Below the pieces are notes generated by a model. The model saw only the letters and a list, made by a program, of their open reading frames with translations. It was not told where the DNA came from and made no database searches. Source: Roseobacter sp. HKCCD6576-2 (GTDB taxonomy: Bacteria; Pseudomonadota; Alphaproteobacteria; Rhodobacterales; Rhodobacteraceae). Taken from it: DNA of 64,000 nucleotides. The stretch lies in assembly GCF_013179285.1 (NCBI RefSeq), contig NZ_WVNW01000001.1, positions 372,001 through 436,000 on the forward strand. Direction: 5' to 3'. Positions 11,993-31,307 of this stretch are shown piece after piece. Positions within the stretch are counted from its first letter, which is position 1. The number at the start of each line of letters is the position of its first letter. A program made the position numbers and the translations under genes.

Positions 11993-12913
11993 TCAACCTT
12001 GCGGTGTCATCGCTTTACGCTGTCTGGCCCTTGCCATGCCCAATTGCCGCTCGCGCCAGATAATCAAAACACCTGCCAGAATGATGATCACGGCCCCGCC
12101 GAGCATGGTCAATGTCGGGATCTCATCAAAGATCAGATACCCCACACCAAGCGCCAACAGCATGGATGTGTATTCAAACGGCGCAATCAGAGACGCATCT
12201 GCATGCCGATAGCTCGACGTGAGCAAGATCTGTCCAAACCCGCCCAAAAGCCCGGCAAGAACCAACATGACGATCTGCACCGGGCTTGGCATGACCCAAC
12301 CCCCGGGGATCGTCAGAAGCGACAAAGTGCTGGCCGTGACCGAAAACCAAAACACAATCGCGGCGGTGCCCTCGGTCTGCACCAGTTTGCGCACAAAGAC
12401 TTGCGCCAGCGCGGCGCAAATCGCGCCCATCAGAACGACGACTGCCCCCAATGTCTCCCGCGTATCGGCACCGCTCACCCCGACTTGCAGCCGTGGGGAG
12501 AGCACGATCAGAACCCCGACCAACCCAAGCGCCACGACACTGAGCCGAAAGGCGCGGACCTCCTCCCCCAAGAACATCGCGGCGAAAATCACCACCAGAA
12601 GCGGCGCGGCATAGCCGATCGCGGTCACCTCGGGCAGCGGCAAGAGACCCAAGCCCGCAAAACCAAGCCCCATCGCCATCGTGCCGACCAGCCCGCGCCA
12701 GACATGGCCGATAGGATTCTGCGTTTTGAGCCCAATATGCAATTCTTGGCGATAGAGCAGCCAAACGACAATCACCGGCAGAGCGCAGATTGAGCGGAAA
12801 AACACGGCTTGCCCCGCGGGCACCGTGTCAGATACCGATTTGATCAGGCTCGCCATCGTCATGAAGACGCAGACCGACGCGATCTTGAGCGCAATGCCGC
12901 GAAACGGCGTCAT
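11993..12913 (-). CDS. DMT-superfamily (EamA) transporter
   Basis: A 306-residue membrane protein of ten predicted helices in two EamA halves. The second half opens near residue 160. It includes glycine-rich helix ends such as GLVGTMAMGLGFAGLGLLPL and the C-terminal EYTSMLLALGVGYLIFDEIP, a usual DMT signature. It probably exports a small molecule. Its ATG overlaps the TGA of the beta-lactamase-like gene (ATGA at 12910-12913), so the two are almost certainly co-expressed. The substrate is unknown. Confidence 0.85.
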   Translation of the reverse strand: MTPFRGIALKIASVCVFMTMASLIKSVSDTVPAGQAVFFRSICALPVIVVWLLYRQELHIGLKTQNPIGHVWRGLVGTMAMGLGFAGLGLLPLPEVTAIGYAAPLLVVIFAAMFLGEEVRAFRLSVVALGLVGVLIVLSPRLQVGVSGADTRETLGAVVVLMGAICAALAQVFVRKLVQTEGTAAIVFWFSVTASTLSLLTIPGGWVMPSPVQIVMLVLAGLLGGFGQILLTSSYRHADASLIAPFEYTSMLLALGVGYLIFDEIPTLTMLGGAVIIILAGVLIIWRERQLGMARARQRKAMTPQG

Positions 12914-24624: not shown

Positions 24625-25467
24625 TTAGTGCGCCATCAAGACCGGCACGATGGCATTCTCCAGCAGGTTCCGTGTCGCCCCGCCCAAAATCGCTTCGCGG
24701 AAGCGGGAATGGCCATAGGCGCCCATCACCAGGAAATCGGCGTTTTGATCCTGAACATGTCGGTTGATCACATCCGAGACCCGCGGCAGCGTTTGCGCCA
24801 CGATTGAGACTTCCACCTGGCATCCATGCCGGTTGAGCATCTGACAGAGCTCAGCACCCGGATCGGCAACCTCCGCAGCGTGGCGTTGTGGGTCGATGAT
24901 CAGGATATTGACCAGTTTCGCGGTTTTCAGGATCGGCAATGCCGCTCGAACCGCCGAGAGCGCCTCAGCCGATTCATTCCAGGCGATGACAACCCGTTCC
25001 GGCGTCGCCGTGACCGGCTTGTCGCCGCCGGGCAGAACCACGGCGGTCGCTTGGCCTTGGAACATCGCCGCTTCGACCACAACCGGCGCGTCAGAGGTCT
25101 GCCCCTCGCCGTAAGGCTTCGGCAACATAACCATGTCAGCGAACCGCGCCCGGCGGGCGACGATTCCGGCCACGCTGGCCGTCTGCGTGACCAGAGCTTC
25201 GATCCCCCATGAGATTTCCGTCTTCTCCAAGCGGGCGCGGGCGGCAGCCTCGATCTCGCTGGCCAGAGCTTGTGCTTGGGCCAGGGTCTCCTCATGCATC
25301 AGCGCCGTCGCGCCAGCAAAATAATACCCGGTCTGTGTGCGGTCGATCCCGAGGCAAAGCACATCAAGATGCGCGCCTTCGGCACGGGCGAAGGGCAGAG
25401 CAGCCTCTAGCACGGGGCCGACCTCTGCCGGATCGGTGAGAATTGTCAGAATGCTCTTATAGGCCAT
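24625..25467 (-). CDS. uspA: tandem universal stress protein
   Basis: A 280-residue protein with two UspA-like folds, each about 140 residues. The second half has the nucleotide-binding [21 protein letters not shown], while the first half is more diverged. The ATG at 25467 follows a near-perfect GAGGAGGT ribosome site. It diverges from ccoNOQP, and two FNR boxes lie between them, so it is inferred to be induced at low oxygen. Genes of this kind are common next to cco operons in Rhodobacter. Confidence 0.9.
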
Positions 25468-25526
25468 ATCAAACCTCCTCGGTTGCAAGCTTTTCTCAGG
25501 ATTAGACCGGGGCGGGACGTCGCACC

Positions 25527-25540
25527 TTGACCTGCGTCAA
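25527..25540. promoter_or_regulatory. FNR/FnrL box, uspA-proximal
   Basis: TTGACCTGCGTCAA matches the FNR half-sites TTGAC and GTCAA with 4-base spacing. Its centre is about 66 bases upstream of the uspA start and 32 bp from the second box. The spacing suits control of the uspA promoter. Confidence 0.75.
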
Positions 25541-25558: not shown

Positions 25559-25572
25559 TTGACATGGATCAA
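25559..25572. promoter_or_regulatory. FNR/FnrL box, ccoN-proximal
   Basis: TTGACATGGATCAA matches the FNR consensus with one base change. Its centre is about 104 bases upstream of the ccoN start, which leaves room for a class II FnrL-activated promoter and a leader of about 60 bases. Confidence 0.82.
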
Positions 25573-25669
25573 GGCCATAACCCCCTGTCCTGCGCGATGT
25601 GGGGTCAGATGGAACAGCTCCGGACGGCTCGACTCGAGTCGGAACCGGGGAATGACGAAGGGACGATCT

Positions 25670-27271
25670 ATGCTTGATTATGTAAAGCTGCTGATCCTTG
25701 GCTTGGTGGTGCTTTGTGCAGCCATCGCAGCCAATTACGCCCGGGATATGGTTTATATGATCCATATGATCCTGGTGATGATCACGGCGGGTGGCCTGTT
25801 TATCTGGCAACTCCGTCGCACTGGTGAACCGGCGGTACCGGTTCCGACACATGAATATATGGACGGGCCCGTGCGCGCCGCCGCGATTGCCACCGCCTTT
25901 TGGGGGGTTGTGGGCTTTCTCGTGGGCGTGGTCATCGCGTTCCAGCTGGCTTATCCGCAGCTCAACTTCGATTGGGCGGACGGGTATCTGAACTTCGGTC
26001 GGCTCCGTCCTCTGCATACATCTGCGGTGATCTTCGCCTTTGGCGGTAACGCGCTTCTGGCCGCGTCCTTCTACATCGTGCAGCGGACTTCGGCGGCCCG
26101 GATGTGGGGCGGTGGTCTGACCTGGTTCGTCTTCTGGGGTTACCAGTTCTTCATCGTTCTGGCCGCCTCCGGCTATGTCTTGGGCTCGACCCAAAGCATG
26201 GAATACGCCGAACCCGAATGGTATGTGGATCTCTGGCTCACGATCGTCTGGGTGGCCTTCCTCCTGGTCTTCGTCGGCACCCTGTTGAAGCGGAAAGAGC
26301 CGCATATCTACGTCGCTAACTGGTTCTTGCTCAGCTTCATCGTCACGGTGGCGATGTTGCATGTGGTCAACAACCTGGTTGTGCCGGTCTCCATCTTCGG
26401 CTCGCGCTCGGTGCATGTGATGTCGGGCGTACAGAGCGCGATGACACAGTGGTGGTACGGCCATAACGCGGTGGGCTTCTTCCTGACCGCCGGCTTCCTG
26501 GGGATGATGTACTACTTCATCCCGAAGCAGGCCGAGCGTCCCGTCTACTCCTATAAGCTTTCGATCATCCACTTCTGGGCCCTGATCTTCTTGTATATCT
26601 GGGCCGGTCCGCACCACCTGCATTACACCGCACTGCCGGATTGGGCGTCGACCCTCGGCATGGTGTTCTCGGTGATCCTGTGGATGCCCTCCTGGGGTGG
26701 TATGATCAACGGTCTGATGACGCTCTCAGGCGCCTGGGATAAGCTCAGGACCGACCCGATCCTGCGGATGATGGTGACCTCGGTGGCCTTCTACGGCATG
26801 TCGACCTTCGAAGGTCCGATGATGTCGATCCGTGCGGTCAACTCGCTCAGCCACTACACCGACTGGACGATCGGTCACGTGCACTCCGGTGCGCTCGGTT
26901 GGAACGGCATGATCACCTTCGGGATGCTCTACTATCTCTTCCCGAAACTCTGGAACCGCCAGGCCCTCTACAGCCTGCGCCTGGTCAGCTGGCACTACTG
27001 GCTCGCCACGATCGGCATCGTGCTCTACGCGTCGTCGATGTGGGTGACCGGGATCATGGAAGGCCTGATGTGGCGTGAAGTGGATGCTCAGGGCTTCCTG
27101 GTGAACTCCTTCGCCGACACGGTGGCTGCCAAGTTCCCGATGTATGTGGTCCGCGGCTTGGGTGGGGTGATGTTCCTCTCCGGTGCGCTGATCATGGTCT
27201 ACAACCTCTGGATGACTGTGAAGAAGGGTACCGTGAAATCGGACGCCCCTGCCGCAGCGCCTGCTGAATAA
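25670..27271 (+). CDS. ccoN: cbb3-type cytochrome c oxidase subunit I
   Basis: The catalytic haem-copper subunit of the high-affinity terminal oxidase. About 533 residues with some twelve membrane helices. The haem and copper ligand histidines are visible in [35 protein letters not shown] and [13 protein letters not shown]. The ATG at 25670 follows GAAGGGA; the frame is open upstream, but those residues lie over the FNR box. It is the first gene of ccoNOQP. Confidence 0.96.
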
Positions 27272-28242: not shown

Positions 28243-29135
28243 CCGACGACAAGTACAAACATCCCGACGAGCAGATTCTGCAAGAGGGCGACCCCGATAC
28301 CACCGGCCATGTCTGGGACGGCATCAAGGAGTTCAACAACCCGCTTCCACGCTGGTGGCTTTGGACCTTCTACGGCACCATCGCCTGGGGATTGCTTTAC
28401 ACGATCCTCTATCCGGCTTGGCCACTGATCAACAGTGCAACGCCGGGCCTGTTGGGTTACTCGACTCGCGCCAATGTGGCCGAGGATATTGCCGAGTTCG
28501 ACAGTATGAACGCTCCGATCCGGGCGCAGATCGAAGAGGTCGAATTGGCGGCCATCAATGCCACCGATAACCCAGATCTCTACAGCTATGCGATCCAAGG
28601 CGGGGCCGCGACTTTTGCGACCTGGTGTTCGCAGTGTCACGGCTCGGGTGCGGCTGGCGTGCAAGCCTCGGGCTATCCGAACCTGCTGGACGATGACTGG
28701 CTCTGGGGCGGCACGATCGAAGACATTCACTACACCGTGTCCCACGGGATTCGGAATGAGGATGATCTCGACGCGCGCTACTCTGAGATGACCGCTTTTG
28801 ACGAGATCCTCACCGACGAGGAAATCGCCAGCGTCGTGCAATATGTCCGCAACATCTCGAACCAGGAGGCCGACGCGACCTTGGCGGCGGCTGGCGAGAG
28901 TGTCTATCTCGACAATTGCGCCGCTTGTCACCTGGATGACGGCTCGGGCGACCGGTTCCTCGGCGCGCCGAACCTGACCGATGCGATCTGGCTCTATGGC
29001 GGCTCCGAAGAGGCGATTGAGCACACCGTGCGCTTTTCCCGCTTCGGCGTGATGCCCCCTTGGACCGAACGTCTGTCCGAGGCTGAGATCCGCTCGGTCG
29101 CGGTCTATGTTCACTCTCTGGGTGGCGGCGAATAG
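28239..29135 (+). CDS. ccoP: cbb3-type cytochrome c oxidase subunit III (di-haem)
   Basis: A 298-residue protein with one N-terminal membrane helix (residues about 38-62, WLWTFYGTIAWGLLYTILYP) and two cytochrome c domains. Their haem motifs are CSQCH (near residue 130) and CAACH (near residue 227). It takes electrons from soluble or anchored cytochromes. It is the last gene of ccoNOQP, followed by a terminator at 29163-29197. Confidence 0.96.
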   Translation: MTDDKYKHPDEQILQEGDPDTTGHVWDGIKEFNNPLPRWWLWTFYGTIAWGLLYTILYPAWPLINSATPGLLGYSTRANVAEDIAEFDSMNAPIRAQIEEVELAAINATDNPDLYSYAIQGGAATFATWCSQCHGSGAAGVQASGYPNLLDDDWLWGGTIEDIHYTVSHGIRNEDDLDARYSEMTAFDEILTDEEIASVVQYVRNISNQEADATLAAAGESVYLDNCAACHLDDGSGDRFLGAPNLTDAIWLYGGSEEAIEHTVRFSRFGVMPPWTERLSEAEIRSVAVYVHSLGGGE

Positions 29136-29162: not shown

Positions 29163-29197
29163 AAAGGCCCGGTGGGATACCCCGCCGGGCCTTTCTC
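29163..29197 (+). terminator. rho-independent terminator after ccoNOQP
   Basis: AAAGGCCCGG and CCGGGCCTTT form a 10-bp stem with a short GC-rich loop, then TCTCGTTT. It lies 27 bases after the ccoP stop and separates ccoNOQP from the downstream region. Confidence 0.85.
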
Positions 29198-29291: not shown

Positions 29292-29305
29292 TTGATTCAT
29301 GTCAA
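29292..29305 (+). promoter_or_regulatory. orphan FNR/FnrL box with a -10-like element
   Basis: TTGATTCATGTCAA matches the FNR half-sites TTGAT and GTCAA with 4-base spacing. GATACT at 29326-29331 could be its -10 element. That would put the FNR centre near -40, the usual class II activation position, and a transcript start near 29338. No intact gene begins within 500 bases, so I connect it to the candidate small RNA below. Confidence 0.65.
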
Positions 29306-29337
29306 AGCTGCGCGCCATCGGAGTCGATACTCCAAGT

Positions 29338-29475
29338 TCAAGACATGTCTCCACGAGGATGTGTTTCTGATTGGCGGCCTCCCAGTGACCGCCTCAAAAC
29401 ACCGAAGGCCCCTCCCGGTCTTTGGTCATGGCACCGGTCTTGGTCCTGTTCGCGCGTTTCCTACAAGACCGGTGC
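29338..29475 (+). ncRNA. candidate FnrL-dependent small RNA with CCUCCC loops
   Basis: Three hairpins lie in a row. The first is GGCGG/CCGCC (29373-29393), with loop CCTCCCAGTGA. The second is ACCGAAGGCC/GGTCTTTGGT (29401-29426), with loop CCTCCC. The third is GCACCGGTCTTG/CAAGACCGGTGC (29431-29475), a perfect 12-bp stem with a 21-base loop. CCUCCC is an anti-Shine-Dalgarno sequence and recalls the loop motifs of alphaproteobacterial 'cuckoo'/CcsR RNAs. The upstream FNR box and -10-like sequence fit a low-oxygen promoter. The third stem lacks a T run, so its role as terminator is unsure. Ends are estimated; this is a prediction. Confidence 0.4.
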
Positions 29476-29531
29476 CCACTCCCCCCACGCTCTAAAAGGC
29501 ACTGACCCAAGGGTCGATTCGCGACCAGTTC

Positions 29532-29693
29532 ATGGCGCACCACAAGACGGCCCCGGTGGAGCAATATGGCGCGATCATGAAGGAATATGTGGCGGTGCCC
29601 GAAGCACTTGCCGCCGATCCGGATCAGGTCGCAGCGCTGTTCGCGCAATCTGTCGCCTACGTGGAAACCTTGAAGCCGAAAAAGACCACGTGA
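29532..29693 (+). pseudogene. C-terminal remnant resembling a TfoX/Sxy-family protein
   Basis: The frame encodes 53 residues ending in MKEYVAVPEALAADPDQV followed by an Ala-rich helix and LKPKK. This is like the last 45 residues of TfoX/Sxy N-terminal-domain proteins, which end in a YV-x-VP-like strand, a helix and a S/T-L-x-PK tail. The usual first half (a K-M/R-M-F-G-G motif) is missing and there is no ribosome site before the ATG at 29532. I read it as the 3' end of a deleted gene. The similarity is short and judged by eye. Confidence 0.4.
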
Positions 29694-29783: not shown

Positions 29784-29797
29784 TTGATCCACGTCAA
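29784..29797 (+). promoter_or_regulatory. FNR/FnrL box upstream of ccoG
   Basis: TTGATCCACGTCAA matches TTGAT-N4-GTCAA. Its centre is about 78 bases upstream of the ccoG start, which suits a class II promoter for ccoGHIS. Confidence 0.82.
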
Positions 29798-29867: not shown

Positions 29868-31307
29868 ATGAGTGCCACGGAAGAGCCACAAAAGCTCTAC
29901 GCCGCCCGCGAACCTGTTTTTCCGAAACGGGTCTCCGGTCAATTCCGCAATCTCAAATGGATCATCATGATCGTGACCCTGGGGATCTACTACATCACCC
30001 CCTGGATCCGGTGGGATCGTGGGCCAGCACTTCCCGACCAGGCCGTGCTGATCGACATGGCGAACCGGCGCTTCTTCTTCTTCTGGATCGAGATCTGGCC
30101 GCACGAGTTCTATTTTGTTGCGGGCCTTTTGATCATGGCCGGTCTCGGCCTGTTCCTCTTCACGTCCGCGCTTGGGCGGGTCTGGTGCGGTTATACCTGC
30201 CCGCAAACCGTTTGGACGGATCTCTTTTTTGCGGTTGAGCGCTGGATCGAGGGCGACCGAAACGCCCGGCTTCGGCTCTGGAAAGCGAGTTGGGATGCCA
30301 AGAAAGTCCGGCTCAGGATCACCAAATATATCGCCTGGCTCGCCATTGCGGTGGCCACTGGCGGGGCCTGGGTGTTCTACTTTGCAGACGCCCCGACGCT
30401 TCTGGTCAATCTCATCACGCTTCAGGCGCACCCCGTGGCCTACACCACCATCGGCATTCTGACCGCGACCACCTTTGTCTTTGGCGGGTTCATGCGCGAA
30501 CAGGTCTGCATCTATATGTGCCCCTGGCCGCGCATTCAGGCCGCAATGATGGATGAGCACTCGATCACGGTTGCCTATCGCGATTGGCGCGGTGAGCCGC
30601 GCGGGCGTGGCAAGGATCGCCACGAGGGTGAAGGCGAGGCGGCGCTTGGCGACTGCATTGATTGCAATGCCTGCGTCAATGTCTGCCCTGTCGGGATTGA
30701 TATTCGCGACGGCCAGCAGTTGGAATGCATCACCTGCGCGCTCTGCATCGACGCTTGCGATGACATCATGGAGAAGATTGGCAAGCCGCGCGGTCTGATC
30801 GACTATATGGCGCTGACCGATGAGGAAAACGAGCGCGCCGGCAATCAGAAAATTTCGATCTGGAAGCACATTTTCCGGCCTCGGACGATCCTCTATACAG
30901 CGCTTTGGTCCGGCATCGGCATTGCGCTTGTGGTGATGCTCTTCATCCGGTCCGAGATCGACATGACCGTCGCGCCGATCCGCAACCCGCAATTTGTCAC
31001 CATGAGCGATGGCTCGATCCGCAACACCTATGACATCCGGATCCGCAACATGAGCCATGATGACAGCACGTTCCAGATCACGCTGACCTCCGAGGCGGCG
31101 TTGGATGTCGGGTTGGAAGGCACGGATCTGCTAACCGTTGATGTGCCTGCCGACACGACTCATCTGCAACGGGTCTATGTCACTGCGGCGCCTGGATCTG
31201 ACCCGGCCAATCGTGAGCGCACGGATTTCCGCTTCTGGGTGGAAGATCTGCAAAGCACCGCCCGCACGTCACGCGATACCGTCTTCAACGGGAGAGATAT
31301 GGAATGA
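29868..31307 (+). CDS. ccoG: cbb3 oxidase accessory protein CcoG (FixG/RdxB)
   Basis: A 479-residue membrane ferredoxin-like protein. It has about five membrane helices and two [4Fe-4S] Cys clusters, C-x2-C-x2-C-x3-C in CIDCNACVNVCP and CITCALCIDACD, near residues 262-300. A further Cys pair lies in YTCPQTVW and YMCPWPR. The C-terminal domain is an immunoglobulin-like FixG fold. It reduces copper for delivery to the oxidase. It is the first gene of ccoGHIS and overlaps ccoH by 4 bp. Confidence 0.95.
   Translation: MSATEEPQKLYAAREPVFPKRVSGQFRNLKWIIMIVTLGIYYITPWIRWDRGPALPDQAVLIDMANRRFFFFWIEIWPHEFYFVAGLLIMAGLGLFLFTSALGRVWCGYTCPQTVWTDLFFAVERWIEGDRNARLRLWKASWDAKKVRLRITKYIAWLAIAVATGGAWVFYFADAPTLLVNLITLQAHPVAYTTIGILTATTFVFGGFMREQVCIYMCPWPRIQAAMMDEHSITVAYRDWRGEPRGRGKDRHEGEGEAALGDCIDCNACVNVCPVGIDIRDGQQLECITCALCIDACDDIMEKIGKPRGLIDYMALTDEENERAGNQKISIWKHIFRPRTILYTALWSGIGIALVVMLFIRSEIDMTVAPIRNPQFVTMSDGSIRNTYDIRIRNMSHDDSTFQITLTSEAALDVGLEGTDLLTVDVPADTTHLQRVYVTAAPGSDPANRERTDFRFWVEDLQSTARTSRDTVFNGRDME

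Follow-up and report, generated by a model that had tools for sequence, protein, structure and literature searches.

The window, a 64,000-nucleotide stretch of the Roseobacter sp. HKCCD6576-2 genome, carries the cco genes for a cbb3 oxidase, and the features considered here lie between ccoP and ccoG, whose identities we confirmed by NCBIfam match (Table 1). Behind ccoP is a terminator-like hairpin with a short T-run. A terminator scan did not list it, but its stem recurs, with a longer T-run, in another genome of the same species (G392), and it may separate the ccoNOQP unit from the small RNA element proposed below. Next come an FNR box, a -10-like region, a series of hairpins, the remnant of a TfoX-like gene, and ccoG with an FNR box of its own. 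The window holds five exact FNR boxes, and 14 at up to one mismatch versus 5.2 expected. Two of the five exact boxes (25527-25540 and 25559-25572) are located at the start of an open reading frame at 25559-27271, presumably ccoN; a divergent frame (24625-25488), which had no NCBIfam match, adjoins them.

Table 1. Features between ccoP and ccoG, in window coordinates.
Feature	Position	Strand	Basis or remark
ccoP stop	29133-29135	+	
Terminator-like hairpin with short T-run, 3' of ccoP	~29166-29195	+	From sequence
FNR box TTGATTCATGTCAA, proposed own promoter of the element	29292-29305	+	Exact TTGAYNNNNRTCAA box; conserved in G392
-10-like region	29326-29333	+	GATACT 29326-29331; family position TACTCC 29328-29333
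First hairpin of the predicted RNA	29338-29370	+	MFE fold; letters changed in G392
Hairpin with CCTCCC (29378-29383) in and beside the loop	29373-29393	+	MFE fold; present in G392 too
Hairpin with loop exactly CCTCCC (29411-29416), anti-Shine-Dalgarno-like	29401-29426	+	MFE fold
HRC-8-4-type hairpin ("third hairpin"; last of four in the MFE fold)	29430-29476	+	13-bp perfect stem
Near-invariant loop GTCCTGTTCGCGCGTTTCCT(A), 21 nt in the window, proposed pairing region	29443-29463	+	16 invariant columns in 66 aligned rows; petB-site complementarity
TfoX-like gene remnant, between element and ccoG	29532-29693	+	Pfam TfoX_N match below its cut-off
Separate FNR box of ccoG, outside the RNA	29784-29797	+	Exact box
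ccoG start	29868	+	

An earlier examination of this DNA from its letters alone (the sequence-only reading) had taken the first FNR box to have no gene to serve and GATACT to put it near -40 of a plausible start for a possible small RNA. The box is indeed exact, and no gene was seen to start right behind it. GATACT matches TATAAT at four of six positions, while the hexamer at the offset favored across the family, 23 nt after the box, is TACTCC, a weak -10. Across the family the -10-like signal has class-II spacing; the window itself thus offers no strong case of this promoter. Transcription is predicted to start near 29338-29340.

The RNA encoded downstream is predicted to fold stably, with a minimum free energy (MFE) of -59.1 kcal/mol for 29330-29480 compared with -43.9 +/- 4.5 for shuffled sequences (z -3.40; 2 of 200 shuffles were as stable). 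Three consecutive hairpins had been described, two of them with CCUCCC in the loop and the third a perfect 12-bp stem. The MFE fold instead has four hairpins, both CCUCCC motifs are placed in or at hairpin loops, and the last stem is perfect over 13 bp rather than 12. We refer to this last structure as the third hairpin throughout.

The third hairpin is HRC-8-4, identified by location, host range, and architecture as described in the text of Brewer et al. (2021; PMC8632094). The family was reported with 160 representatives, in Rhodobacterales only, mainly between ccoNOQP and ccoGHIS and sometimes upstream of hvrB; its discoverers speculated that it could be a riboswitch-like terminator or a binding site for HvrB (PMC8632094). 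Among the papers covered by a text search, the name occurs only in that one. Rfam gave no gathering-score match at the hairpin site, and membership in ar14 (RF02344) was rejected, as the match over 29363-29480 scored 14.6 bits (E 3.1) against a gathering threshold of 58.8.

A first sequence search matched 6 of 60 other genomes, only across the last two hairpins (query positions 143-239 of 311). Each of these six has the third hairpin with its loop TGTTCGCGCGTTTCCT kept, mostly directly 3' of ccoP. We then used a covariance model (R1), with which the window copy scores 61.6 bits (match G000 C1:401425-401482); the searches were run with fast filters, at the cost of weak matches. Of 248 Rhodobacteraceae genomes, 109 had an element detected by R1; of the 142 genomes in a class sample, only the two family members matched, and none of the other 140 did. 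A ccoP match (E 0.001) was found in 241 of the 248, and the element was detected in none of the seven lacking one. R1 left the element undetected in 132 of the 241 genomes with a ccoP match, which counts against a small RNA explanation.

Comparison of the copies shows the third hairpin to be an RNA structure, one that looks specific to the family. In an alignment of 66 of the 108 nonredundant copies, the outer 8-bp stem is 97.5% paired with 90 double changes. None of 500 shuffles reached the observed covariation on four of five measures, 5 of 500 did on the fifth, and the signal was lost when the pairing partner was slid. Sixteen loop columns are without variation in the 66 rows, an invariance that is partly by construction because most rows were found via the loop. 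The last loop letter varies in three aligned copies (L002, L010, and L028), and the loops of L030 and L033, which are among the copies left out of the alignment, deviate by two letters and one letter, respectively; the loop is therefore near-invariant rather than invariant. Behind the stem the window copy has CACTCCCCCC and no U run. This absence does not exclude it from HRC-8-4, since the authors write only that the family "generally conforms" in this respect (PMC8632094). Two or three tandem copies with identical loops occur behind ccoP in L129 (genome G214), L055, and L058; the spacing is 286 nt in L058 and close to 91 nt in the other two.

To compare promoters, we began with 162 loop matches with stem energies. 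Of these, 24 fell below the stem cut-off and 6 weak ones were dropped by hand, leaving 132 elements, 128 of them distinct. For 76 copies the distance to the ccoP stop is under 120 nt; the other 52, at least 120 nt from that stop or with ccoP not found, we classed as away from ccoP. No exact FNR box occurs in the 300 nt upstream of the 76 copies behind ccoP (three at up to one mismatch, 1.2 expected). Away from ccoP, an exact box is present upstream in 47 of 52 copies, where dinucleotide shuffles predict 0.01. The five without one are the second tandem copy of L055, the second tandem copy of L058, which has one-mismatch boxes, the second and third tandem copies of L129, and L088, for which just 106 nt of upstream sequence was covered. 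A further set of 31 loci gave 18 copies new to the set, with an exact box in 0 of 9 behind ccoP and 8 of 9 away; the ninth away copy has a one-mismatch box.

The geometry of these boxes is that of a promoter. Among the 47 copies, element-strand hexamers at an offset of 23 nt past the box average 2.98 of 6 matches to the -10 consensus, versus 0.8 to 2.0 at other offsets, and 15 of 47 have at least four matches, which places the box center near -41. Class-II FNR activation occurs from about this position. The opposite strand has no -10-like signal at that offset (mean 1.17 matches in the 47 copies), so service to a divergent gene was rejected. In the window the box likewise lies at class-II distance from the predicted start with no other gene to serve, although the -10 is weak.

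The box might also serve ccoG, but ccoG has its own exact FNR box in all 37 copies away from ccoP that have ccoG within 1.6 kb, 57 to 75 nt before its start (the 37 include a few tandem copies that themselves lack a box). Among copies behind ccoP with ccoG at that range, 57 of 60 show the same. In the window, too, ccoG has an exact box of its own, and assignment of the first box to ccoG was rejected. Because ccoG has a separate box, the element is most likely the sole feature served by the first one. The pattern of boxes, present away from ccoP and absent behind it, looks like that of an FNR-controlled small RNA: the hairpin looks like a 3' untranslated region (3'UTR) product in some genomes and like the product of its own gene in the window genome. 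In Rhodobacter sphaeroides, ccoNOQP is reported to be a target of FnrL and CrpK (PMC4263372), so the hairpin would be expected at low oxygen in both arrangements.

These results bear on the discoverers' proposal (PMC8632094), under which the element would sit in the leader of a downstream gene, ccoG or hvrB, and terminate its transcription conditionally, either like a riboswitch or when bound by a protein. Four relocated copies with an FNR box (L032, L067, L092, and L098) do have a LysR-type reading frame (MDWL..PPLAALRAF), perhaps hvrB, about 150 to 340 nt downstream on the same strand, and read-through control is therefore possible there. As a general account we consider a leader function improbable, since the exact box of ccoG stands between the element and the ccoG start, 34 of 112 copies have the next large reading frame running the opposite way (by a rough heuristic that left 16 of 128 unassigned), and a T-run (at least 5 T in 8) follows the hairpin in just 9 of 128.

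A second alternative is a cis-acting 3'UTR element, a hairpin that an RNA-binding protein would recognize by its loop and that would serve the processing or stability of the ccoNOQP mRNA. The many copies close behind ccoP agree with this, and a near-invariant loop on a free stem suits a protein site as well as it suits a pairing loop. A cis stabilizer, however, needs no FNR box of its own, which nearly all of the copies away from ccoP possess, and in the window the terminator-like hairpin stands between ccoP and the element. We regard this alternative as unlikely, though slightly less so than a leader.

Both arrangements occur within one genus. The extra FNR box is present in the window genome (G000), in G392 of the same species, and in G003. 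In G001, G002, and G004 the element lies directly 3' of ccoP and the box is absent, and G005 carries ccoP but lacks the element. The stretches examined in G003 and G005 did not show ccoG. The sequence-only reading had named loss of the stems and loops in close relatives that keep the flanking genes as grounds for refutation. This check mostly failed to refute it: five of the six own-genus relatives with ccoP keep the third hairpin and loop, but across the family the element was detected in far fewer genomes than was ccoP. The TfoX-like gene is truncated in the window and longer at the same place in G392, which suggests a deletion in the window strain. Such decay would fit a locus without any functional RNA, a leftover of the ccoP 3'UTR beside a dying gene. 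Against this, the FNR box, the -10 region, the loop, and the third stem are identical between the window and G392 while the neighboring gene decayed, and we give this explanation very little credence.

We also asked how far the CCUCCC loops are shared. A hairpin with this loop is kept on changing stems in the own-genus copies, in G016 (L006/L108), and in L059, L122, and L129. CCTCCC occurs 18 to 90 nt upstream of the element in 21 of 128 copies, counts that are inflated by related, nonindependent genomes. Among copies with their own FNR box it is found in 12 of 47 (1.6 in shuffles; reverse complement 0), and among copies behind ccoP its frequency is close to that of shuffles (7 of 76 versus 4.3 expected; CCCCTCC 8 versus 1.8). 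CCTCC is unpaired in 9 of 16 MFE folds. The CCUCCC loops are a real trait of part of the family and not its core. The expected anti-Shine-Dalgarno loops thus proved constant in the own genus and a few relatives without being a family feature; the stems around them change among those copies, and the covariation measured across the family is that of the third stem. If these loops were the main actors, as in a general anti-Shine-Dalgarno regulator of the cuckoo/CcsR kind, the third hairpin would be merely a 3' cap. The enrichment in copies with their own box and the constancy in the own genus speak for this; the absence of CCTCCC from the other 35 of those 47 and the placement of the conserved part in the third loop speak against it, leaving it about as improbable as a leader function.

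We conclude, with a probability of roughly three in four, that positions 29338 to 29477 or thereabouts are an FNR-controlled small RNA gene of about 140 nt, with HRC-8-4 as its 3' hairpin, most likely acting in trans and with petB as the best candidate target. The main idea of the sequence-only reading, that the cbb3 island holds a small RNA gene activated by FNR, was thus most likely right in kind, and the FNR-box pattern, the class-II spacing of the -10 hexamer, and the separate box of ccoG in related genomes support it well. At low oxygen, the FNR-type regulator FnrL would bind near -41 and start transcription. The RNA would display a 20-nt loop, GUCCUGUUCGCGCGUUUCCU, that hardly varies and is carried by a covarying stem; the CCUCCC loops would lie closer to the 5' end. 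The hairpin would instead form the 3' end of the FNR-driven ccoNOQP mRNA in many relatives, so that low oxygen would induce the RNA in both arrangements. Its action is most likely in trans, the loop pairing with ribosome-binding sites and blocking translation. The window copy has no T-run behind the third hairpin that would account for its 3' end.

The candidate target, petB, encodes cytochrome b of the bc1 complex. It emerged in a search of own-genus genomes for complements of the loop before ATG, where it was matched twice, with different halves of the loop (G005 and G002), among many genes. Of 241 genomes with a match, we examined the petB start in 149, drawn from 30 loci and from the 119 best-scoring stretches of a limited list (G264 was left out), and scored the contiguous pairing length, minus one-half per G-U pair, from -25 to +6. 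Nineteen of 82 genomes with the element scored 9 or more, versus 2 of 67 without it (P = 0.0002; 0.0001 to 0.03 across seven cut-offs, and 0.0003 given GC3). When the 3' UUUCCU of the loop was held fixed and the rest shuffled, a mean of 1.7 genomes attained a score of 10 versus 19 of 149 observed, and 4 of 400 shuffles were as high. The best pairing, in G182, spans 16 nt with two G-U pairs, and the window genome's own petB scores 9.5.

Other tests were less favorable. Sixty-three of the 82 genomes with the element do not attain a score of 9, and G005, which lacks it, still has 13 nt of complementarity to petB. Mean duplex energy differed little, at -14.2 with the element and -12.5 without it (P = 0.02), and permuting the loop did as well: 121 of 300 permutations gave a mean as low in genomes with the element, and 23 of 300 matched the group difference. 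The trait is scattered on the petB tree with about 20 changes, on a tree that is weakly resolved and with few supported pairs in an independent-pairs test. With the tests mixed, petB is a candidate target of the loop, a lead rather than a finding.

Broader scans for loop complements were also made. A loose pattern allowing two mismatches gave no excess over a reversed control in nine genomes. Ribosome-site patterns outnumber reversed controls, which is expected because the pattern contains Shine-Dalgarno bases. In the own genus, the gene of an 82-amino-acid membrane protein has sites complementary to the loop, but these did not clearly separate genomes with the element from those lacking it (30 loci, 3 without a start), and a complement scan of the cco loci was swamped by the element's own opposite strand. 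Within ccoG, GCGCGAACAGG (30494-30504, + strand; also in L003, L004, and L006) is complementary to 11 nt of the loop and may reflect merely conserved codons. In G002, a gene for a MarR-type regulator precedes an apparent cydA and carries the loop complement CGAACAGGA at its ribosome site (L262), and a glutaredoxin-family gene begins AGGAAACGCGCG directly before its ATG, with 12 nt complementary to the loop (L243).

A bolder version of the small RNA reading is a family-wide, two-state RNA that repeatedly switched, even inside a single genus, between the 3' end of the cbb3 mRNA and a gene of its own under FNR, and that silences petB at low oxygen through its one nearly invariant loop, coupling the high-affinity oxidase to a lowered bc1 complex. 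We offer this tentatively and would sooner bet against it than for it. If petB is a true target, the RNA would link two parts of the respiratory chain. The element occurs in a large part of the Rhodobacteraceae sample, and its copies form a natural series, even in one genus, of a small RNA moving between an operon 3'UTR and its own promoter.

Among known small RNAs, PcrZ of R. sphaeroides was rejected as the identity of this locus by its different map position, its 5' end lying at 2,565,820, about 0.13 Mb from the cco genes at 2.436 to 2.441 Mb. CcsR/cuckoo RNAs have CCUCC-type loops with the loop CCUCCUCCC. The element shares loops of the CCUCC type with these RNAs, which, with CcaF1, are processed from the 3' part of a transcript. 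As far as their descriptions go, however, they are cotranscribed with a DUF1127 gene from an RpoHI/RpoHII promoter, whereas in the window the element has ccoP as its upstream gene, is preceded by an FNR box, and conserves another loop. CCTCCTCCC occurs once in the window, at 12559, and not within the element. The likeness to cuckoo/CcsR suggested by the sequence-only reading was not borne out, and membership was rejected. The main text of a P. denitrificans small RNA paper mentions none of cco, cbb3, FNR, and Pden_184.

In regulation, the proposed RNA would resemble FnrS of Escherichia coli, a small RNA directly under FNR (PMC4263372). Two FnrL-bound small RNAs, RSs0019 and RSs2461, are described there as not resembling FnrS (PMC4263372). 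In structure and place, the likeness is to HRC-8-4 itself: the window copy has the hairpin, the conserved tip on a strong stem, the location between ccoNOQP and ccoGHIS, and the host order Rhodobacterales given in the text of PMC8632094. The motif is thus not new as a sequence. The published account of the family, in its passages on HRC-8-4, is without FNR promoters, a switch between 3'UTR and own gene, or a pairing target, and in the texts covered by our literature search we did not meet a reading of it as an oxygen-controlled small RNA that repeatedly exchanged one arrangement for the other. HRC-8-4 was published in 2021 without a function, and the FNR-box pattern recasts this presumed riboswitch as a testable, oxygen-controlled small RNA.
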